Source: an uncultured Bradyrhizobium sp. (GTDB lineage Bacteria; Pseudomonadota; Alphaproteobacteria; Rhizobiales; Xanthobacteraceae). From it: DNA of 64,000 nucleotides. The translations under genes and the position numbers were made by a program. Numbering within the stretch: the first letter of the stretch is position 1; every line of letters starts with the position of its first letter. The stretch spans positions 24,150-88,149 of the forward strand of contig NZ_CANSMR010000028.1 of the NCBI RefSeq assembly GCF_947648125.1, given 5' to 3'. The notes below the pieces were generated by a model. It was not told the DNA's origin and did not search any database. It saw only the letters and a list, made by a program, of their open reading frames with translations. This document shows positions 2,820 to 62,118 of this stretch, in pieces.

Positions 2820-3063
2820 CAGGCGCTCCGGGTGGGGCAGGCTTGGCCGCGCGATCGCAAGAGGCAGCCTTTGGTCGGCAGCGACATACCAACAGGGCCA
2901 TGCACCCACTACTCTACCCGACCGGTGTTACAGGACCGCATCGACCACAGCTTCTCGTCACCAGCCGGCTCGAGCCGGCATGGCTGGCGCGCGGGTAGTC
3001 GCCCCATTGACGCGGCGCGGCCGGCTTGCGATGTAAGCCGCCCCGGACATCCCAGGGTGGTCA

Positions 3064-6000
3064 ATGCAAATCGTTCGTTCCGTTCGCCTCTGGATGAAGG
3101 AAGGCAGATCCGACAAGCTCTATGAAGTCGATCTGGTCGATCTGGAACGCGCCGCCGACGCACGATATCTCGTCAACTTCAGATATGGCCGTCGCGGCAC
3201 CTCGTTGAGGGATGGAACCAAGACTCCGTCGCCGGTCACTCGCTCGAACGCCGAGAAGCTGTTCGATAGTGTCGTAGTATCCAAGATCAACGATGGCTAT
3301 CGCCGCATCGACGGCGACGCACCACCGCTGGCCGTTCGCGACGCCGGCGATGCCCACGGACGCGACACGGAATTGCTCAAGAAGCTCGCGCTCTGTGCAC
3401 GAAGTGCGTGGCCCGAGAAGGAGCGCGACCGCCTGTTCTGGCGCCTTGGTGTGATCCGGCTGGCCGCCGCCTATCCCCAACTCGCCGCCTTCGCCGAGAA
3501 GGTCGGCGCGGCAAACGCGAGCTACAGCCTGGTATATGCGCTGGCGCGCTGTGGCGGTGCGGACGCCGCCCATCTGTTGCGCAGCTGCGCCGACCTCAAT
3601 GTCAGCCTGGTGACGCGCGACTACGCCGCCTATGCCCTCGCAAGCGAACTGATGGGCGCTCGGCAATTGTCGCCACGGCTGTCGCTGCCGCGAACCACGG
3701 ATGCTGCGGCGACACGCGACATCGAGATGGCGCTGACGAACGGCAATGGCGCGGGCCTGACGCAGGCCCTGCTCGCGGCGAACTCGGCGCAACCGGGCTT
3801 CGCCAATCAGTTCCTCATTGCTCTTGCCCACCACGCGCTCGCAGACGACGCCGCGCGCAAGACGCTGCTCGCGGCTGTGCATGCGATGAGCCCACGACCG
3901 CCCTACGTGCAGGTGCTGCGACGCCTGTTCAAATATGCCGATCTCATCGACGACGGCCCGCTGTTCGCCGCGACTGCACGACAGTTCGAGCTGGCTACGC
4001 CGATGTATTATCGCGGCCGGGTCTACAACGACCGAGTCTGGGTGCCCGGTTCGCGCCAGGCGCTGAAGCTCAGCGAGGAACAGCACAGCGCGGCTCCGCG
4101 CATCGCGCTGTCCGACCAGACCCTGTTCTACTTCAAGCGACGCGCCTGGCGCATGCTGCGCAAGCGTGCCGAACTCGGACAGGACGCCTTCACGGCGATG
4201 GCGGGTGAGCTCCTCCTCGCCTTCACCGACGCCGACGGCATCAAGCCGGCGACATGGACCGAGCATGTCCGTATCGACGGCAGCTTTCGTCCCGTTCCCC
4301 ATTCCGCCGAGGCGCTGAGCCGCGTGTGGAGCGTCAGCCACCTGCTGCATGCCGGGGGCCAGACCAGCCGCTTCAATGACAAGGCTCTCACCCATCGCCA
4401 TGTCGGCACGCGCACGCCCGCGCAGCGCGAGGAAGCCTTTCCCGCGCTATGGGATGCGCAGCCGCAGCGGCTGCTGCGCATCGCGACGCTGGCGCGCAAT
4501 CATGCGGCGGCGCGCTTCGCGGCAGAGGCGCTGCGGCAGGGCCCGCCGCGGCCCGATGCGATGGACGTGGCTGCGATCGGCGGCCTGCTGGCCTCGCCCT
4601 ATCCCGAGGTCACCGCGCTCGCGGCCACGATCGCGCGGCGCCTGATCGATGCCGACAAGGCCGATGCGGCATTGATCGCCGCGCTGCTCGAGGCGTCGGC
4701 GCCCGACATGCGCGACCTGGCCATCCGTGCCATTGACGACCGCACCGACTGGCCGTGGGCCGACGCCGCCCTTGCACGCGCCGCGCTGACGAGCCCGCAC
4801 GATCACGTGCAAGGCCGCATGCGCGGCTGGCTACGCGACCGAGCGCCTTCACGGGACCAACGCGCCCACGCGACGGAGGCGTTCGCAGCCTGGCTCGCGC
4901 AGTTGCCGCCAGAACTTGACGATCTGCAGCGCGCCGGCCTCACTGCCGCTCTCGCGCTGCTGCCGCAACTATGGCCGGATCGCGACTGCCCGCTGCAGCC
5001 GGAGGTGATCGAAAGCCTGACCGGTCACGCCAGCCCCGACGTGCAGGCAGCCAGCATCCAGCTCATCGCCGTCACCCCGACGCGGCCTGACGACCTGCCG
5101 ACAGCGTTTTGGCAGGCGATCCTGCAGGCCGACGCGCCGGAAATCCGTATTGCCTCGATGAGCCTGCTGGCACGGCTCGACGACGCCGCGCTCGCGCAAC
5201 ATCGCGATGGCATCGCTTTGGCGGCCACCGGCGCTCATGCAGGGCTGCGAGCGGCTGCGCGGCCACTCGTTGCACGCCTCGCGGCAGCCGACGAGGCTTT
5301 CGCCGTTCGGTTGCGCGACGCGCTGATGACTGGCCTCTTTCGCGCCGAGCCGGTCGAAGGCCATGCCGCCGACATGGTCGCACTCTTCGTCGAGGCCTTG
5401 CCGCAGGCAGCGGCTGCCATCGACGATGGCACCCTATGGCGCCTGCTGCAAGCGCGCGCGGCCGGCGCCCGCATGCTGGGCGCAAAGCTGCTGGAGAGCA
5501 GCGACCCGTCGCGCTTCTCGGTCCGTCAACTCGCCCGCCTCGGCAACCATTCGTTTGCCGCCGTGCGCCGCTTCGCGCTGCATGCGTTTGCGACCGACGA
5601 GCCGCGCTTCCGCGCCGACCCGCAGAATGCCGTGCTGCTGGTCGAGAGCGAATGGGACGATGTACGAACAGTCGCGGTGAACCGCCTCACGGCATGGCCC
5701 AGCGAAGCGCTGCCGGCGGCGGCGCTGGCAGTGATGGCGGACTCGACCGTGCCCGCGGTGCAGGACGGCGCCCGCCTGCTGCTGCGGCGCAGCCTCGCTG
5801 ACGGCGATGTCGCCGAGGTGCTGGGCCGCGTATTGGAGCACCCCTCCGGCAGCTTCCATCTCTTCGTCACCGAGCTGATCACCGGCGATTCGCTGGCGGA
5901 TGCGGCGATCTTCGCCAAATTCCTCACCCAGGCCCGCATCATCCTGATGCAGATCAACCGCGGGCGCATCGCCAAGGACCGGATCTTCACGTCACTACGC

Positions 6001-6216
6001 AACGAGGCGCTGGCGCACCGGGATCGCGCAGCGGCGATCGCACAGCTGCTGCACGACTTCACGCTCAGCGTGACCCTGCGTGACAAGGCGCCCGCACTGA
6101 TCATCCTGCGCGACATCGCTCATGCCTGGCCGGATCTCAGCCTGCCCGTCACCGTGGCCCGCGCCGGCCGCACGCCGCCGGGCGGCGGCTCGCAAACCAG
6201 CGGAACCGCCGCATGA
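3064..6216 (+). CDS. WGR-domain / HEAT-ARM repeat protein (retron accessory protein)
   Basis: 1050 aa. Residues ~3-80 form a WGR-like domain, with the signature present as YGRRGTSLRDGTKT (Tyr in place of Trp). Such domains bind nucleic acid in PARPs and bacterial DNA-binding proteins. The rest is an alpha-solenoid of repeated Leu/Ala-rich helical pairs of the HEAT/armadillo kind (for example segments around residues 480-560 and 640-760). The start ATG follows AGGGTGG. Its stop overlaps the next start (ATGA at 6213). With the SWIM gene and retron RT downstream it forms the ARM + WHSWIM + RT set that I recall as type XIII retrons. Its likely part is sensing, or holding the RT-msDNA complex; that is inference. 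Confidence 0.85.
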   Translation: MQIVRSVRLWMKEGRSDKLYEVDLVDLERAADARYLVNFRYGRRGTSLRDGTKTPSPVTRSNAEKLFDSVVVSKINDGYRRIDGDAPPLAVRDAGDAHGRDTELLKKLALCARSAWPEKERDRLFWRLGVIRLAAAYPQLAAFAEKVGAANASYSLVYALARCGGADAAHLLRSCADLNVSLVTRDYAAYALASELMGARQLSPRLSLPRTTDAAATRDIEMALTNGNGAGLTQALLAANSAQPGFANQFLIALAHHALADDAARKTLLAAVHAMSPRPPYVQVLRRLFKYADLIDDGPLFAATARQFELATPMYYRGRVYNDRVWVPGSRQALKLSEEQHSAAPRIALSDQTLFYFKRRAWRMLRKRAELGQDAFTAMAGELLLAFTDADGIKPATWTEHVRIDGSFRPVPHSAEALSRVWSVSHLLHAGGQTSRFNDKALTHRHVGTRTPAQREEAFPALWDAQPQRLLRIATLARNHAAARFAAEALRQGPPRPDAMDVAAIGGLLASPYPEVTALAATIARRLIDADKADAALIAALLEASAPDMRDLAIRAIDDRTDWPWADAALARAALTSPHDHVQGRMRGWLRDRAPSRDQRAHATEAFAAWLAQLPPELDDLQRAGLTAALALLPQLWPDRDCPLQPEVIESLTGHASPDVQAASIQLIAVTPTRPDDLPTAFWQAILQADAPEIRIASMSLLARLDDAALAQHRDGIALAATGAHAGLRAAARPLVARLAAADEAFAVRLRDALMTGLFRAEPVEGHAADMVALFVEALPQAAAAIDDGTLWRLLQARAAGARMLGAKLLESSDPSRFSVRQLARLGNHSFAAVRRFALHAFATDEPRFRADPQNAVLLVESEWDDVRTVAVNRLTAWPSEALPAAALAVMADSTVPAVQDGARLLLRRSLADGDVAEVLGRVLEHPSGSFHLFVTELITGDSLADAAIFAKFLTQARIILMQINRGRIAKDRIFTSLRNEALAHRDRAAAIAQLLHDFTLSVTLRDKAPALIILRDIAHAWPDLSLPVTVARAGRTPPGGGSQTSGTAA

Positions 6217-7883
6217 ATTTCGCGTATCGATTTCTCGGCAGCAGCAGCGCGTCGTCCGACGCCGCCTCGTCGTCGTTCGCCTTCGCGCCGGACACGCTGC
6301 GCCAGCCGACTTTCTTCACCGGCAAGGTCGCGCGTCACCTCGCGTTTCGTGAGGCGATCTCCGCGCTGCATCACGTCGTCGTCTCGGACCTGCGCTTCAA
6401 GCCGCGCGATCGCACCGCCTATTTCGAGTGGCTGAAGCAGAACGAGGCCAACTTCCTCGCCGAGGCGACAGCGCAATCCGCGGCGCTCAAGCCGCGCATC
6501 GCGGAATTGCAGGACCGCATCCGCGGCTTCGACCGCGAGCGCGATCGGCTGATGAAGCCGTTCTGGGCGGCGCGGCAATCTTATTTCAACTACCTCTACA
6601 AGCAGAACCGCGACGCCTGGATCGTGCTCGATCCGGTAATCACAGTGCATCCGGACGAGATTTTCTTCGAGTGCTTCAGCCTCGACGAATCGAGCTACGG
6701 GCGGCTGTCGTGCGACCACGACGTGTTCGAGAGCCTCGGCGAGATGGCGTTCGGCACCACCAATATCGACTACAGCCACGCCCTCTACGACGAATTCCAG
6801 AAGATCCGCTCCTACCGCGACACCACGCTCACCATCGATCCGTCCGGATTCGAGGTGCAGACCGGCGACGACCTCGACTTCCGCGAGGAGAAGATCGACC
6901 TGCCGGATAGCTGGGTGCGCGGCTTCCTGCAGGTGTCGAGTGCCATGACCCTGCCGGCGCATGTGTTCGACCTGCACCCCGTGGACATGGCCAATATCCT
7001 CACCCGCCTCGCGCAGAGGAAGGAGCAAGCCGGCCCGCGCTCTCTGCGATTCGTGCTGAAGCCGGACGCGCCGGTGGAGGTCGTCATCGAGCCATGGCAC
7101 GACCGGCTCACCTTCCGCCGCTCGATCTATCGCGGCCCGGCGCCCGCCGAGATCCGCATCTGGGGCCGGCGGCGGCTTGCCATTCTCGGGCGGGCGCTGC
7201 CGCTGGCGCGGTCGGTGCGGGTGCATTTGAGCGGGACCGGCCTGCCGTCGTTCTTCGTCGTCGATTTTGGCGGTCTGCGCTTCACGCTCGGCCTGTCCGG
7301 CTGGACCGCGAACGACTGGTCGTCCGCCGGGCAATTCGACCTGCTCGCGCCGCGCCACAAGGTCGACAACGACACGGCCCAACGCGTTTTCGCAGCGCTC
7401 AGCAAATCCCACGCGGCGAGCGCCGCCGAGCTGGCGCGACAGACCGGTGTCGACCAGGCGCTGGTGCATGCGGCGCTCACCGCCTACACTCAGGCCGGAC
7501 GCGTCATGTTCGACCTCGACAAGTCGCTGTACCGCCTGCGCGAGCTGACGCGCGAGCCGCTGTCCCCCGCCCGGCTGCGCTTCGCCAGCGCGCAGGAGGA
7601 GAAAGCCAATCGCCTGATCAACGCCAACCTCGTGACGATCGGCAACATAGATCGCAACCAGGGCGTTCGCGCGATCAACGGCAGCGTGCTCGACAACGCC
7701 CGCACCGAGCAGGTGAATCTCGTCATCGACGATGACGACCGTCTCGTCGAGGCGCGGTGCAGCTGTCATTTCTACGGCCACAACAAGATGATGCGCGGCC
7801 CTTGCGAACACATGCTCGCATTGCGCCGGATCTTCCATTCACAAATCGAGGGCGTCGCCCAGGATGGACCCGCCATCGCATGA
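6213..7883 (+). CDS. Winged-helix + SWIM zinc-finger protein (retron accessory, WHSWIM)
   Basis: 556 aa, overlapping the stop of the HEAT/ARM gene by 4 nt (ATGA), so translation is probably coupled. The N-terminal ~370 residues are of unknown fold with coiled-coil-like stretches (LKPRIAELQDRIRGFDRERD). A winged-helix-like unit follows (AELARQTGVDQALVHAALTA, ~residues 405-430). A C-terminal SWIM finger has CSC, then CEH about 14 residues later (CxCx(n)CxH, ~residues 510-530). SWIM fingers bind nucleic acid or proteins. Position between the ARM gene and the msr-msd/RT points to the retron's own accessory protein. Confidence 0.87.
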   Translation: MNFAYRFLGSSSASSDAASSSFAFAPDTLRQPTFFTGKVARHLAFREAISALHHVVVSDLRFKPRDRTAYFEWLKQNEANFLAEATAQSAALKPRIAELQDRIRGFDRERDRLMKPFWAARQSYFNYLYKQNRDAWIVLDPVITVHPDEIFFECFSLDESSYGRLSCDHDVFESLGEMAFGTTNIDYSHALYDEFQKIRSYRDTTLTIDPSGFEVQTGDDLDFREEKIDLPDSWVRGFLQVSSAMTLPAHVFDLHPVDMANILTRLAQRKEQAGPRSLRFVLKPDAPVEVVIEPWHDRLTFRRSIYRGPAPAEIRIWGRRRLAILGRALPLARSVRVHLSGTGLPSFFVVDFGGLRFTLGLSGWTANDWSSAGQFDLLAPRHKVDNDTAQRVFAALSKSHAASAAELARQTGVDQALVHAALTAYTQAGRVMFDLDKSLYRLRELTREPLSPARLRFASAQEEKANRLINANLVTIGNIDRNQGVRAINGSVLDNARTEQVNLVIDDDDRLVEARCSCHFYGHNKMMRGPCEHMLALRRIFHSQIEGVAQDGPAIA

Positions 7884-7951
7884 GTGACATGAGAGCTGCC
7901 ATCTGCAGAGCCGGCTTGAACCGGCCACGACAATTCGCGTATCACTGCATT

Positions 7952-8185
7952 CGGAAGGGCGCAGGCCGGTCAGGACCTTGCAATCCGGGCGGCGTATCGC
8001 CGTCCTTGCACTATGACCACGCATGCGTCACTGGCCCGATCTTCACTGGGCCGGGGCAGTCCACCCGTACGCAATCGCAGAATGGGTTCCTTGAACCCAA
8101 TTGCGTACGGGTGGACGCCCCGGCGTCGAGTGGATCGATCCAGTTCTTAGAAGAGACGAAGGCAACCCGGCCTGCGCCCTTTCCG
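7952..8185 (+). ncRNA. Retron msr-msd RNA locus with a1/a2 repeats
   Basis: The 352-bp gap before the RT gene is highly structured. a1 at 7952-7969 (CGGAAGGGCGCAGGCCGG) is complementary to a2 at 8167-8185, with only one extra T at 8182. Between them lie msr-like hairpins: CGGCG-TAT-CGCCG at 7990-8002, and GGCCC/GGGCC at 8033-8052. Then comes a long msd hairpin. It has outer arms GGGGC 8053-8057 / GCCCC 8117-8121, a perfect 16-bp stem 8060-8075 / 8100-8115, a 7-nt one-sided bulge, and an inner 7-bp stem 8083-8089 / 8093-8099 with a CTT loop. The order a1-msr-msd-a2-RT is the retron order. The branching G and exact msDNA ends cannot be fixed from sequence. Confidence 0.85.
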
Positions 8186-8235
8186 ATCCCCCTCCACAAG
8201 ACTGCCGCGCCCCTCCTGAACGGAGGGCTGGCCGC

Positions 8236-10047
8236 GTGAACGAGACCATTGCTCCCGGCACGCTGACGCGTCAGGAACTCTACGACCGCATCCGCCAGTC
8301 GTCGAAGGACGAGGTCATCCTCGAAGAGATGATCCGGCTCGGTTTCTGGCCCGACGGCGAAGACGCACCGGCGCCGGCCGCGGACGTGATCCGCGCCCGC
8401 GCAGACGCGATGCGCGAACTCACCGAACTGCAGCGTCAGAACGCCACGCTCGGCGATCCCGAGCGGGCGCTGAAGGAAATGCACAAGCGCCGCAAGGCCG
8501 AAGCGATGGCGCGGCGGCAGGAGACCAAGCGTCGCAACGCGGAGGCATGCCAAAGCCGGGCCTTTGCCTGGTACGATCGGCGCAAGCGCGACGTGCTCTA
8601 TCTCGGCGAGGACGTCTCGCGGGGCCTTCACACCCGTACGGCCACCACGCCCTTGCACGACGGCCTGCCCCCGCTCGCCGATGCCAAGGCGCTGGCTGAC
8701 GCGATGGGCATAGCACTGGGCGAGCTGCGCTTCCTCGCCTTCAACAGAAAAGTGGCGTTGGTCAACCACTATCAGCGCTTCACGATCCCCAAGAAGAGCG
8801 GCGGCGAGCGATTGATCTCGGCGCCGATGCCGCGTCTCAAGCGCACGCAATATTGGGTGCTGGACAACGTTCTCGCACGGGTGCCACTCCATGATGCCGC
8901 GCACGGCTTTGCAGCGCAGCGCTCCATCCTGACCAATGCGCGCAACCATGTCGGCCGCGACGTGGTGATCAATCTCGATCTCAAGGATTTCTTCCCGACC
9001 TTGACCTACGCTCGCGTCAAGGGCCTGTTCGAGGCGCTGGGCTATGCCGAAGCGGTCGCGATTCCGCTCGCGCTGTTGTGCACCGAGCCGATGGTCGACG
9101 AAGTGGCGCTCGACGGCGAACGCCACTTCGTTGCCGACGGTCCGCGGCTGCTGCCGCAGGGCGCGCCGACCAGCCCGGCGATCACCAACCTGATCTGCCG
9201 CAAGCTCGACCGACGTCTTGTGGGGCTCGCGCGCACACTTGGTTTCGTCTACAGCCGCTACGCCGACGATCTGACCTTCTCCGGCTCGGGCGAAGCCTTG
9301 AAGAAGATCGGCACCTTGCTCAAGGCCGTGCACGGCATCGTCGAGGCCGAAGGATTCAGGGTCCATCCGGACAAGACGCGCGTGATGCGCCGCTCGACGC
9401 GCCAGGAGGTCACCGGCCTCACCGTCAACGAGGCGGTAGCCGTGCCGCGCGACCTGCTGCGCCGTTACCGCGCCGTGCTGCAACAGGTCGAGCGCCACGG
9501 GCCGGCTGGCAAGCATTTCGGCCCCGGCAAGGACGTGATCCGGTCGCTGCTCGGCTTCGGCCATTTCGCCGCGATGGTGGATCCGGAAAGCGGCACGCCG
9601 TTGTTGCAGCGAGCGCAGCGCCTCGCCGCACAGTATGGACCCGTCCCTTCCGCGCGGCGTCCGACTCGCGCCGCATTCCGCAAGGCCGCGGCCGCCGGCC
9701 AGACGCCGCCCGGCCGGCAATGGAATCCCGCCGAGCGGCCGCCGCCACCGCCGGATCCGGTGTTGGTCGCGCTGGCACGACAGGACGAAAAGAAGCGGAC
9801 GGCGCAGGCGCGCGCCGCAGCGCCGGGCCCCTCGCGCATGCCCAACGTTCCGCCACCGCCGGTGAGCGTCACGCGCGTGGTCGGCCCGCAGGCTGCTCCC
9901 CCGTCGGCACCGAGCGGGACAAGGCAGCCGTGGTTCGTCACGGCACTGGTGATCGTCGCGGCACTCGCCGTGCTGCTGCTCCCTGGCGGCCCCGCAATCG
10001 CCGGCGCGATGCTGTTTCTTTACTTCAGCCGTTGGTGGAAATGGTGA
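8236..10047 (+). CDS. Retron reverse transcriptase with proline-rich hydrophobic C-terminal tail
   Basis: 603 aa from a GTG at 8236 preceded by GGAGGG; the frame is open from 8101 but that part overlaps the msd and a2. Retron hallmarks: NARNH (NAxxH, residues 234-238), NLDLKDFFP (motif A, 246-254), QGAPTSPAITNL (motif B), YADD (catalytic, 342-345) and VTG (392-394). It should reverse-transcribe the adjacent msd into msDNA. Two oddities stand out. There are ~130 residues before the RT core, rich in charged helices. After a long Pro/Ala-rich stretch (~470-560), the last ~39 residues carry hydrophobic segments (VTALVIVAALAVLLL, AIAGAMLFLYF) ending in WWKW, as in a membrane tail. Confidence 0.93.
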   Translation: MNETIAPGTLTRQELYDRIRQSSKDEVILEEMIRLGFWPDGEDAPAPAADVIRARADAMRELTELQRQNATLGDPERALKEMHKRRKAEAMARRQETKRRNAEACQSRAFAWYDRRKRDVLYLGEDVSRGLHTRTATTPLHDGLPPLADAKALADAMGIALGELRFLAFNRKVALVNHYQRFTIPKKSGGERLISAPMPRLKRTQYWVLDNVLARVPLHDAAHGFAAQRSILTNARNHVGRDVVINLDLKDFFPTLTYARVKGLFEALGYAEAVAIPLALLCTEPMVDEVALDGERHFVADGPRLLPQGAPTSPAITNLICRKLDRRLVGLARTLGFVYSRYADDLTFSGSGEALKKIGTLLKAVHGIVEAEGFRVHPDKTRVMRRSTRQEVTGLTVNEAVAVPRDLLRRYRAVLQQVERHGPAGKHFGPGKDVIRSLLGFGHFAAMVDPESGTPLLQRAQRLAAQYGPVPSARRPTRAAFRKAAAAGQTPPGRQWNPAERPPPPPDPVLVALARQDEKKRTAQARAAAPGPSRMPNVPPPPVSVTRVVGPQAAPPSAPSGTRQPWFVTALVIVAALAVLLLPGGPAIAGAMLFLYFSRWWKW

Positions 10048-13879: not shown

Positions 13880-14432
13880 CAGGCTCATCGCCCCGCCGCA
13901 CAGCCATCATTCGGATCGACGTGGCATTTCGGCTCAGTGTCCGAACCGCGGCCGCCTAACGGCTGTTGCCCTTGGGTGAGGCCCTTCCCTCCACGACTTC
14001 CGCCGAGAGCTGCCTCCCGTTGTTCATCGCTTCTCAGGTAGTATGGCCTCATCCGACTTCTCATCCACGTACATGCTCGGCGTGCGGCTGTCGCCTTCCC
14101 GAGCCGGCCCGGCACACGAGTCCGGGCATGGATGAGACCTCCCAGGTTCCGCGCAAAAAACGTCTCCACGTGCACAAGGTCTCCGACTGTGCGAGGTTCG
14201 GCCCATGCAAGCCATTTCGTCATGGGAGATGTCGCCTTCTCTTCAGCAGAACGAGATCGGCACCTCGGAAGCAGCCCCGTTTCGCAGCTCAATACTCGGC
14301 CCGTGGTCTCCCCTGTGAACGCTTCACGTCGGCCCTCGCGGGACGCCGCGCATCACTCGGGGTCGGGGTGGTTGCTAGACCTTCCCCGGGGGGACCTGCA
14401 CCTCCTATTCTTTGCCAGCTTGCCTGGCGCAC
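13880..14432 (-). mobile_element. Group II intron remnant, 5' part with start of its maturase gene
   Basis: On the minus strand the element begins at 14432 with GTGCGCCAGGCAAGCTGG, the usual GUGYG start of bacterial group II introns. Domain-I-like paired sequence follows. At 14074 the frame MYVDEKSDEAILPEKR begins; after a frame break comes NNGRQLSAEVVEGRASPKG, typical of the N-terminus of rhizobial LtrA-type maturase/RT proteins as I recall them. The sequence leaves the family soon after, near 13880. The catalytic RT, domain V and the 3' end are all missing, so it cannot move by itself. Confidence 0.65.
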
Positions 14433-34289: not shown

Positions 34290-34978
34290 GCAACGCTCCG
34301 TTTCCCATCCCGCTCATCGAACCGGACGTGCCCGATTAAGGCCATCCGGCTCTCCGACTGGTTTCACCGTTGAGGCACACGGAGAGCAAACTAACCGCAC
34401 GCGGCTTCGGCACGGTGAGTAACTCTCCTTCGCCCCTCGACACAGCAATCTCCGGCGGCGCCTGTCATTGATGGTGTTTGCAGGCTCATCGCCAATCACC
34501 ACGACTTCGCCATCTTCGAAAGCGCACCAGAAGTCAGGGCCCTTTCCTCAGCCAGCATTACCCGGCTTCAACGGTCATACGGCCCTGTCCGACTCCCGCC
34601 ATGGCCGCCGCCTTCGCGACGTTGAGGCCGCTACCCTCGCCCGTGACGGGTCTCCCCCGATTACCCGAAACCACCATTCCGACGTGCCGTGCCCACTACC
34701 CCGGCGGATCGAGCGGGTGCGCTTGTCGATTGCTTCCCCGCTCATGCTGCCTACCCCTTTTGACCGGAGGGTCGGCATCCGCATTAGGACTTTCGAGGCC
34801 TGCTCAGGCTTCACTCACGTTACGGCCCGCCGCATTGCTCAACCGCCTAAAGCGGCCTTTGTCACGAGGCTCCAGCCCTGCCGGTTACCCGACCGAACCG
34901 CTCGTCAGCTACCAGATCAATCGACAACTCTCTGGGTGGAATCTTCCTCCACTAGTGATCCGCGCCTTCAGGGCGCAC
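34290..34978 (-). mobile_element. Group II intron relic without maturase
   Basis: On the minus strand it starts at 34978 with GTGCGCCCTGAAGG (GUGYG 5' end). Near the other end, at 34319-34352, is a domain-V-like hairpin (GAGCCGGATG ... CACGTCCGGTTC). Between them a frame includes GSMSGEAIDKRTRSIRRG, like the leader of an intron-encoded protein, but no RT remains. At about 0.7 kb it is an internally deleted copy. It is of a different subtype from the remnant at 14 kb, judging by its 5' sequence. Confidence 0.65.
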
Positions 34979-60283: not shown

Positions 60284-61576
60284 CTACCGTCGCCCCAACG
60301 TCGCACGCCCCAGAAAATCCGTCAGCGCCTTGCGGTCCTCGACCGAGCCGATCCGCTGCTCCGGCATTTTTGTGCCCGGCGTATAGGTATTCGGGCCGAG
60401 TTCGAAGAGTCTTGCCACCGTTTCGGGAGTCCAGACGATATCCATTTTCGTCAGCGCGTCGGAGAAGCGATATCCCGGCAACGACGCAATCCTGCGACCA
60501 AACAGGCCATCGAGCGTAGGGCCGGCGCGCTGCGGCTCCTTCGCGGACAGCGTGTGACACGCAACACACGCCCTATACACCTCGGCGCCACGATCTCCCG
60601 CATAGGGCGCCAGGGGATCGCTTTGTGCATCCCGCAGCGACGAGCCGATTGGATCGCCCGTCCGCGCGTTCCAGCGCCGGATCCTGCCGTCCGCGCCTCC
60701 CGTCAGCAACGTTGCGTTGTCGGGCAGGAATGCCACCGACCAAATGGGCGCTCCCTGAGTGGCCAGCGCTTGCACGATGCTCCGCGCCTTTCGGTCGATG
60801 ACGGAAACCCCTCCACCAATTCCCGTCGCCGCGATCAACGTGCCGTCGGCGGACATCGCCAACGCGACGATCGGGGTCGACCCGGCCTGAACTTCGCCGG
60901 TCTCACGACTATCCGATGTCAGAAGCCGTATTTTCCCGTCGCCTCCGCCCGTGACGATCTCGCCGTCGGGCGCGACTGCCACGGCATTGAGAGGTGACGG
61001 AAGCAGGACGACATCCGGCGTTCCTGCCACCATCGGCCAGATCCTCAACTCGCGATCGTAACCGACGCTGACCAGCGATTGTCCATCTGCAGAGAAGGCA
61101 ACTCCGTTCACGTTCTGCGTATGCCCTTTCAGCACCTGCGACGCGCCGCCGGCGAGTGACCAGACGCCGACCGTATGATCCCACGATGCCGTGGCGAGCC
61201 GTGTTCCGTCCGGCGAGACGGCGAGCGAAACGATTGGCGCGAGATGGCCCTCGAAGACCTGATCCGGCTGCTCCCGGCCGGGTGTCCAGATCGCGATCCG
61301 CGCGTCGGCTCCGGCTGTCGCCATTCGTCCGTCCTTCAGGAACGCGACTGCATTCACTGCATCGGAGTGAAAACGAAGGACTTGCTCCGCGGATTCGGTC
61401 TTGAGTGACCATCGAATGGCGGATGTGTCGAAGCTGCCTGACAGAGCGTTGTTGCCATCACTCGAGATCGCAATCGCCCGAACGGGTCCGCCATGACCCG
61501 CGAGCTGGCCTTGCGCCGGCGTTAAATCAAATGCCCACAAGGCGGCAACGACGTACAGATTTGAGAGCCAGTTCAT
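60284..61576 (-). CDS. Exported WD40-propeller / cytochrome c fusion
   Basis: 430 aa from ATG 61576, chosen because a signal peptide begins there (MNWLSNLYVVAALWAFDLTP). Residues ~25-310 carry six to seven WD40 blades (VRAIAISSDGNNALSGSFDT, VSLAVSPDGTRLATASWDHT, VNGVAFSADGQSLVSVGYDR, SVAFLPDNATLLTGGADGRI). The last ~105 are a class I cytochrome c with haem motif CVACH and a later Met ligand candidate (PGTKMPEQRI). Periplasmic electron carrier with a binding propeller; partner unknown. Confidence 0.87.
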   Translation of the reverse strand: MNWLSNLYVVAALWAFDLTPAQGQLAGHGGPVRAIAISSDGNNALSGSFDTSAIRWSLKTESAEQVLRFHSDAVNAVAFLKDGRMATAGADARIAIWTPGREQPDQVFEGHLAPIVSLAVSPDGTRLATASWDHTVGVWSLAGGASQVLKGHTQNVNGVAFSADGQSLVSVGYDRELRIWPMVAGTPDVVLLPSPLNAVAVAPDGEIVTGGGDGKIRLLTSDSRETGEVQAGSTPIVALAMSADGTLIAATGIGGGVSVIDRKARSIVQALATQGAPIWSVAFLPDNATLLTGGADGRIRRWNARTGDPIGSSLRDAQSDPLAPYAGDRGAEVYRACVACHTLSAKEPQRAGPTLDGLFGRRIASLPGYRFSDALTKMDIVWTPETVARLFELGPNTYTPGTKMPEQRIGSVEDRKALTDFLGRATLGRR

Positions 61577-62118
61577 CGGCGGCTCGCGGGTCGGCTCCGG
61601 CACGCTGCCGTTGCCTTGCAGGATAGCTTGCACGCGCTTGACCAGGGTCAACGACTGGAGCCGTTGTTCGGTTTCCATGCTGCGCCGCGGGATCGGAACG
61701 CCCCCGGTACTCAATGCCGCAATGGCGTCTTGTTGGCTTGAACCGAGGGGCACCGGCTCCTATGCTGAACGTGAAGCGTCAAGGATGACGGCATGCAAAT
61801 ACGACCCAAAGCGTATCTGCATTTCATTTCGCTGTGGCGGTCACTTCGCAATTCGACTTCGCCACACGATGCCGACGTGCCCCGTGAAACGTCACCATCG
61901 CTCATTTTCGTCGCGGTCGTGCTGACGCTTCTCTCGGCTATCCTGGAGGTCGACCTTCATCGAGGTGAATTGGAATCGCTTGGTCTCCTCCGAAGCCACG
62001 ACTCACCTCCAGCCGCCTTCTTGGGCCCGTAGCGTTCGTCGCCCGACCAGGTTTCAATCTGAAGCGCGCCCTCAGCGTTGATCCTGGCTGCGGGTCGCTT
62101 CGCCTGACAGTTGGTTGT
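61577..62118. other. Gap, no gene supported
   Basis: The frame of the fusion gene stays open upstream to 61753, but its codons there lack protein character. Nothing else recognised. Confidence 0.4.

Follow-up and report, generated by a model that had tools for sequence, protein, structure and literature searches.

Type XIII retrons, reportedly defined in a 2020 typing paper, are represented in PADLOC-DB 2.0.0 by three protein models (RT_XIII, SWIM_XIII and WGR_XIII). A profile of their reverse transcriptase (RT) has as its best solved relative the RT of retron Ec86 (Eco1; E 4e-68), a retron whose effector is a nucleoside deoxyribosyltransferase-like protein. In a literature search that did not extend to the typing paper, we found no effector or mechanism described for type XIII, no title or abstract start on a clamp inside a retron and no title on a membrane tail at the C-terminus of a retron RT; the search also returned nothing joining a retron with WHSWIM, with WGR plus SWIM or with ARM/HEAT plus winged helix. 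By term search, neither 'XIII' nor 'SWIM' occurs in two retron census papers (PMC12548924, PMC13405049), and a further paper names type XIII among PADLOC predictions for Variovorax (PMC11953036). Here we describe a retron of this type from an uncultured Bradyrhizobium sp. The stretch analysed, referred to as the window, comprises 64,000 nucleotides (assembly GCF_947648125.1, contig NZ_CANSMR010000028.1, positions 24,150 to 88,149), and the retron within it is part of an 8.57 Mb draft genome (G000, contig 28). Judged from its sequence, the locus is almost certainly a complete type XIII retron and thus of a known kind; defence and the production of multicopy single-stranded DNA (msDNA) are expected of it as predictions only. 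The retron itself represents an established type well; its added interest comes from the anatomy of its family.

The retron locus and its type

Three genes on the plus strand lie head to tail. The first encodes a WGR-HEAT/ARM protein of 1050 aa (3064-6216), the second, which overlaps the first by four bases, a SWIM protein of 556 aa (6213-7883), and the third the RT, whose frame closes at 10047; the msr-msd locus sits between the SWIM and RT genes, and all three frames are open among the open reading frames (ORFs) of the window. The type XIII models of PADLOC match the window proteins over nearly their full length with 836.9 (WGR_XIII), 747.4 (SWIM_XIII) and 594.4 bits (RT_XIII, covering RT residues 7-479), placing an RT_XIII, a SWIM protein and a WGR/HEAT-ARM protein in one locus. 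NCBIfam gave no match to the WGR-HEAT or SWIM protein, and the genome carries a single RT_XIII match, which is the window RT.

The first-pass annotation of the window had called a complete retron with three coupled genes and an msr-msd locus and had assigned it to type XIII as a trio of RT, WHSWIM and ARM proteins. Both calls held, as the frames are open, the RNA is folded and covarying (see below) and the PADLOC scores of all three proteins are very strong. Its descriptions of the single proteins were confirmed as well: the NAxxH, YADD and VTG motifs can be read directly in the RT sequence (as NARNH, YADD and VTG), the WGR head of the solenoid protein is supported by the WGR_XIII score and by a WGR domain above the Pfam cut-off in a relative (L067), the winged-helix/SWIM protein has a SWIM finger above the Pfam cut-off and a predicted winged helix at about residues 386-442. 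RT_XIII as the best PADLOC model of the RT and Ec86 as the best solved relative of the type XIII RT profile place the RT inside the retron clade. The further reading of the annotation, a functional defence system, stands as a prediction.

The RT (603 aa, 8236-10047, +) exceeds in length the solved chains of the Ec86 RT, which comprise 320-349 residues. It consists of a family-specific N-terminal extension (about residues 1-140), a core (about 145-465, with Pfam RVT_1 at 184-397) and a C-terminal tail (9670-10047, +) beyond the match to the PADLOC profile. Its open frame spans 8101-10047, and GTG at 8236 is the most likely start because the RNA hairpin lies upstream and two aligned relatives begin there. 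In a phylogenetic tree, 77 type XIII RTs are separated by a starred branch from five other RTs of the window's family, and the RTs nearest to the window RT belong to Bradyrhizobium.

The WGR-HEAT protein combines a WGR-like head (about residues 1-80) with a long HEAT solenoid, and the WGR_XIII match spans its residues 1-1033. Its AlphaFold model is a helical solenoid with a mean predicted local distance difference test (pLDDT) score of 88.8, in which about the last 15 residues are of low confidence. WGR, a DNA-end-binding domain in poly(ADP-ribose) polymerases (PARPs), gave no Pfam match in the window protein at 1e-3; of four relatives, L067 reached 27.4 bits (cut-off 22), L069 (18.7) and L018 (14.9) stayed below the cut-off, and L076 was not listed. 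HEAT/alphaRep profile matches and generic solenoid matches were also obtained. An assignment of the ARM protein to a specific known family was rejected, as its matches were to generic HEAT solenoids only, in a comparison that barely covered the N-terminal part. Elsewhere in the window, a protein encoded at 60284-61753 (-) matches the PADLOC model HEAT-ARM_XIII with 63.5 bits.

The msr-msd RNA and its variable stem

The non-coding RNA (7951-8186, +, from a1 to a2), identified by covariation and by a covariance model match, is adjacent to the RT and closed by the repeats a1 (7955-7969, +, 15 nt) and a2 (8167-8181, +), which are 100% complementary. It contains a conserved msr hairpin (7977-8009, +; CTTGCA...GGGCGGCG-TAT-CGCCGTCC), just 5' of which we infer the branching G within the GG at 7973-7974, and an msd stem-loop (8030-8144, +). 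The latter has the base ACTGG...CCAGT and a long hairpin with a variable stem (8054-8121), whose 22-nt arms (8054-8075 and 8100-8121) are 91% complementary. The 352 bases between the SWIM and RT genes fold with z = -8.0, none of 100 shuffles being as stable.

With a sequence pattern the RNA could be located in 44 of 83 loci, in two of them wrongly (L049, L077), and from the correctly placed ones 28 varied sequences were picked by hand for an alignment (A7). Changes on both sides occur in 29 of its 45 consensus pairs, and 91.5% of the cells are paired, compared with 76.1% in shuffles (0/500) and 32-43% when the sequences are slid. The msr hairpin corresponds to helix 3 of A7 (100% of cells paired, three of eight pairs changed on both sides) and the msd stem-loop to helices 4-8. 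Together, the fold and the pairing statistics indicate a structure far beyond chance, and the retron RNA covaries across phyla. A covariance model (R1) was built from 24 of the A7 sequences and run on 63 and then 12 sources. It matched the window, which is among the model-building sequences, at 7971-8149 with 174.4 bits, and in each of the 46 searched loci that combine SWIM and RT (the window included, 24 sequences having served to build the model) a match precedes the RT. Rfam has no family over the window RNA at gathering scores, and at E <= 10 gave two matches far below gathering. A partial match to the RNA model (positions 78-158, 32 bits) lies remote from the retron in another genome (G289:C1:7206366-7206446).

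Several of the loci searched contain more than one RNA, with two in L042, L046, L047, L048 and L076 and three in L064. Within four of the pairs (L042, L046, L048 and L076), the msr is 96% identical (311/324) and the loop 98% (110/112), while the stem arms are 66-69% identical (117/173) with pairing maintained; the arms also differ in L064, where the msr is less clearly conserved. Changing stem letters with a constant stem shape are as expected for a bait or a barcode.

Relatives, insertion site and split loci

To place the retron among its relatives, GTDB contigs were scanned with an alignment of three RTs. This gave 171 confirmed relatives, and the analysis was continued with the best 80; the scan required one of two N-terminal motifs, and the sample is therefore biased to RTs that keep them. 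These relatives span Pseudomonadota, Bacteroidota, Myxococcota, Planctomycetota, Chloroflexota and Cyanobacteriota. Matches to all three proteins were found in 67 of the 80 loci and to SWIM in 68, the best match not being covered by a single open frame for ARM in L023, SWIM in L043 and L047 and RT in L060. Viral contigs yielded four candidate stretches, none encoding a relative of the window RT. Among plasmids we found one close RT relative (Methylobacterium bullatum) and five weaker RTs, with SWIM in the M. bullatum record only.

The upstream flank of the retron (1 to about 2.95 kb) is common to five Bradyrhizobium records (L020, L021, L022, L030 and L039), all of which have the cassette at the same place. 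Tandem polysaccharide deacetylase genes (135-965 and 1046-2437, +) lie in this shared flank. In three further records, from Bradyrhizobium or the window's genus (L014, L023 and L025), the cassette is homologous and the flanks are not; as homology ends near 3.0 and 10.06 kb, the roughly 7-kb cassette seems to be mobile as a whole. No integrase was seen inside it among the window ORFs. At the same site, one relative (L015 9481-10953; apparently the same record as L028 9001-10473) has a decayed remnant, in which the RT carries an internal deletion and neither WGR-HEAT and SWIM nor the RNA gave a match. The WGR-HEAT and RT frames of L039 also seem to be interrupted. Within the window's family the RT is present in 3 of 296 genomes at E <= 1e-150, including the window's own and one decayed copy. 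This patchiness, together with the cassettes lacking shared flanks, suggests gain and loss, as for defence systems.

Twelve of the 80 loci, including the decayed copy L028, are without SWIM. In all nine genomes of such loci that were checked (L028, L060 and L074 being outside the check), SWIM was found elsewhere. Eight of these genomes are cyanobacteria (L054, L058, L059, L065, L071, L079, L084 and L094) in which the RNA lies directly after the SWIM gene, at another place than the RT, and in which at least 4.7 kb of DNA upstream of the RT contain no RNA match (partly masked in L059 and L079). Each gave one RT_XIII match and one RNA match; as the RNA scoring covered the best 150 first-look candidates, further RNA copies are possible. 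In Moorena bouillonii, RT and RNA are located on one contig at 1.86 Mb and 7.56 Mb, respectively; in L065 they are 28 kb apart on one contig, and in the remaining six genomes each is on a contig of its own. The two are adjacent in a sister Moorena (L068, a metagenome-assembled genome, MAG). The ninth genome, Aureispira (L064), has RNAs beside the RT and also beside SWIM, and because both places sit at contig starts an assembly break is likely. The copies near the Aureispira RT are three in tandem (L064 149-878), and the one beside SWIM is on the other contig (L098 6-205).

We also asked how the parts co-occur across 194 genomes of the cyanobacterial phylum. RT_XIII matches 26 of them at E <= 1e-60; no E-values fall between 1e-138 and 1e-85, and the 12 genomes above this gap were taken as type XIII. 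Near full-length SWIM_XIII matches are present in nine genomes, all within these 12 (Fisher 2.5e-13, with thresholds chosen after the gap was seen and genomes that are not independent), and weaker partial SWIM matches occur in three genomes without RT_XIII (G310, G316 and G338). WGR_XIII is found in eight genomes, one match being weak and partial, all within the nine SWIM genomes. In four of these nine, SWIM and RT fall on separate contigs, which in one case (G344) may reflect an assembly break. The retron parts are retained together even where the RT is unlinked. In three cyanobacteria (L059, L072 and L092) one gene directly precedes the RT, presumably an RNase III-like gene.

Partner proteins, RT tails and a possible mechanism

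Residues 34-365 of the SWIM protein are predicted to adopt a two-domain clamp fold of the PCNA type, both domains being present in the predicted fold, with a helical insertion at about 68-131; a winged helix (about 386-442) and a SWIM zinc finger (505-537; Pfam 21.9 bits, cut-off 19.6) follow. The likeness to PCNA and Rad9-type clamps thus lies in the predicted fold, to which the SWIM protein adds the insertion, the winged helix and the finger, and a ring is putative. The names of the PADLOC models are silent on a clamp fold. Pfam Rad9 (9-1-1 clamp) matches weakly in three of three scanned SWIM homologues from retron-free loci, at the same profile positions and each time below the cut-off (E 0.0055, 0.017 and 0.31). 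Two retron-free cyanobacterial genes (L109 and L111) match SWIM_XIII over profile positions 97-504 with 212-224 bits; unlike the window retron, these stretches contain no RT and no msr-msd match. In each, a gene for a SWIM_XIII-like protein is paired with one for a large partner (L109 4877-9725, -; L111 70-5005, +), the partner being DUF6493-like in L109 (22.6 bits, below the cut-off of 25; one of two partners scanned) and not recognised as a WGR-HEAT protein in L111. The SWIM proteins of these pairs match Rad9 weakly.

The tail of the window RT consists of a Pro/Ala-rich linker followed by a hydrophobic hairpin (about residues 565-595, hydropathy 2.48 over 19 residues) and ends in SRWWKW. Tails were classed in 77 of 83 RTs, leaving out those cut by contig ends (L024, L026), broken (L028, L039), without an open frame (L060) or missed by the motif search (L033). 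A hydrophobic segment is present in 30 and a Lys/Trp-rich terminal peptide (e.g. KKPWWKFW, EKPWWDVL, KKKWWKLF), preceded by a variable linker and without a membrane segment, in 32; the other 15, all cyanobacterial, have no tail. Every one of the 26 RTs in the window's alphaproteobacterial clade has the hydrophobic tail, as do, outside it, those of a Neomegalonema MAG, Pleionea, Chitinibacter and L095. The L095 RT (2907-4955), which the tree places apart from the others, is fused to a C-terminal Pfam RDD membrane domain (28.3 bits, cut-off 24.1). On the RT tree, a quick tree with several long branches, the tail types need four changes. The terminal Trp tails resemble what we take to be clamp-binding peptides of the PCNA-interacting peptide (PIP) type, and their place and make-up suggest that they may bind the clamp; the window RT has the hydrophobic tail rather than such a peptide.

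We give even chances to the proposal that RT, msDNA, clamp-like SWIM and WGR-HEAT proteins form a DNA-sensing immune complex. The mechanism, which we infer, draws on the observed parts, RNA, co-occurrence, split loci and tail classes and on the predicted clamp fold. The RT would copy the msd into msDNA and remain bound to it, and this particle would keep the WGR-HEAT and clamp-like SWIM proteins inactive in a complex. This complex would fall apart once a phage protein bound, cut or modified the msd hairpin, and the released clamp/WGR module would act on DNA, where it would most likely block replication or repair at ends, upon which the infected cell would stop growing or die. In the window's clade the hydrophobic hairpin of the RT might place the complex at the membrane, and in other clades the Lys/Trp peptide may dock the RT on the clamp in PIP-type fashion. 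Both the occurrence of SWIM within RT_XIII genomes and the retention of the parts where the RT is unlinked count in favour of a functional unit. A broader generalisation, which we hold tentatively and regard as rather doubtful, is that type XIII retrons are clamp-based immune complexes in which msDNA guards a PCNA-like SWIM protein and a WGR-HEAT scaffold, the hypervariable msDNA stem serves as an exchangeable bait, a clamp-binding peptide or a membrane hairpin tethers the RT, and cyanobacterial RTs work in trans on an RNA that may be megabases distant.

A number of results weigh against these proposals. No profile evidence for PCNA as a sequence-level homologue of the SWIM protein emerged: a profile search against PDB sequences gave no PCNA link at E <= 10, hhalign against human PCNA returned a probability of 0.8%, and none of the 25 Pfam families listed, out of 43, for 49 SWIM members is a clamp family. 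Of the four hole-lining helices, which we assigned by topology, only 319-331 is strongly basic family-wide, and together they carry +3.6 over 55 residues; as this assigned lining is only mildly basic, any encirclement of DNA by the SWIM protein is putative. No toxin-like enzyme was recognised in the retron, and among 10 other window ORFs PADLOC matched no defence model except for the HEAT protein noted above (63.5 bits). Relaxed constraint on the stem sequence alone would give the same pattern as a bait. Three of the 12 cyanobacterial RT_XIII genomes have no SWIM match, and dispersed parts are unusual for a defence cassette.

That dispersal, with the parts kept together, also speaks for an alternative that we consider improbable, namely a DNA-damage or genome-maintenance system that is not primarily anti-phage and in which RT-made DNA and the clamp answer host breaks. 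The upstream flank common to the window and five other Bradyrhizobium records fits it, and clamp and WGR are repair-type modules; its patchy occurrence (the 3 of 296 family genomes) and the cassettes without shared flanks in L014, L023 and L025 argue the other way. Somewhat less probable still is that the effector is the hydrophobic hairpin of the RT, which would perforate or depolarise the membrane and leave SWIM and WGR-HEAT as a sensor only. Retron Ec48 has an effector with two transmembrane segments (2TM), and 30 of the 77 classed RTs carry a hydrophobic tail, including the RDD domain of L095; with 32 RTs ending in a Lys/Trp peptide without a membrane segment and 15 without a tail, however, the hairpin cannot act as effector throughout the family.

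The decayed copy at the same site in a relative raises the question of whether the window strain carries a dead retron as well, which is very unlikely given three open frames, the presence of the catalytic motifs and an RNA of 174 bits. An RT of the group II intron or defence-associated RT (DRT) type with an unrelated hairpin can practically be dismissed. Two group II intron D1-D4 RNA matches elsewhere in the window (14177-14399, -, 143.4 bits; 34815-34954, -, 98.9 bits), which have no link to the retron, would be in its favour, but the model scores already refute it, with 594 bits for RT_XIII against 54 for group II and 30 for Drt2.

The clamp-like partner of the proposed immune complex is a lead on the working of the poorly understood type XIII. 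If the SWIM protein is a sliding-clamp relative, bacterial immunity is connected with a fold of replication and damage checkpoints, concrete mutants can be tested and a reason suggests itself why RT, RNA and partners stay together. The split cyanobacterial form, in turn, would mean that a retron RT need not adjoin its RNA, which matters both for retron discovery and for the use of RTs in trans in genome editing.

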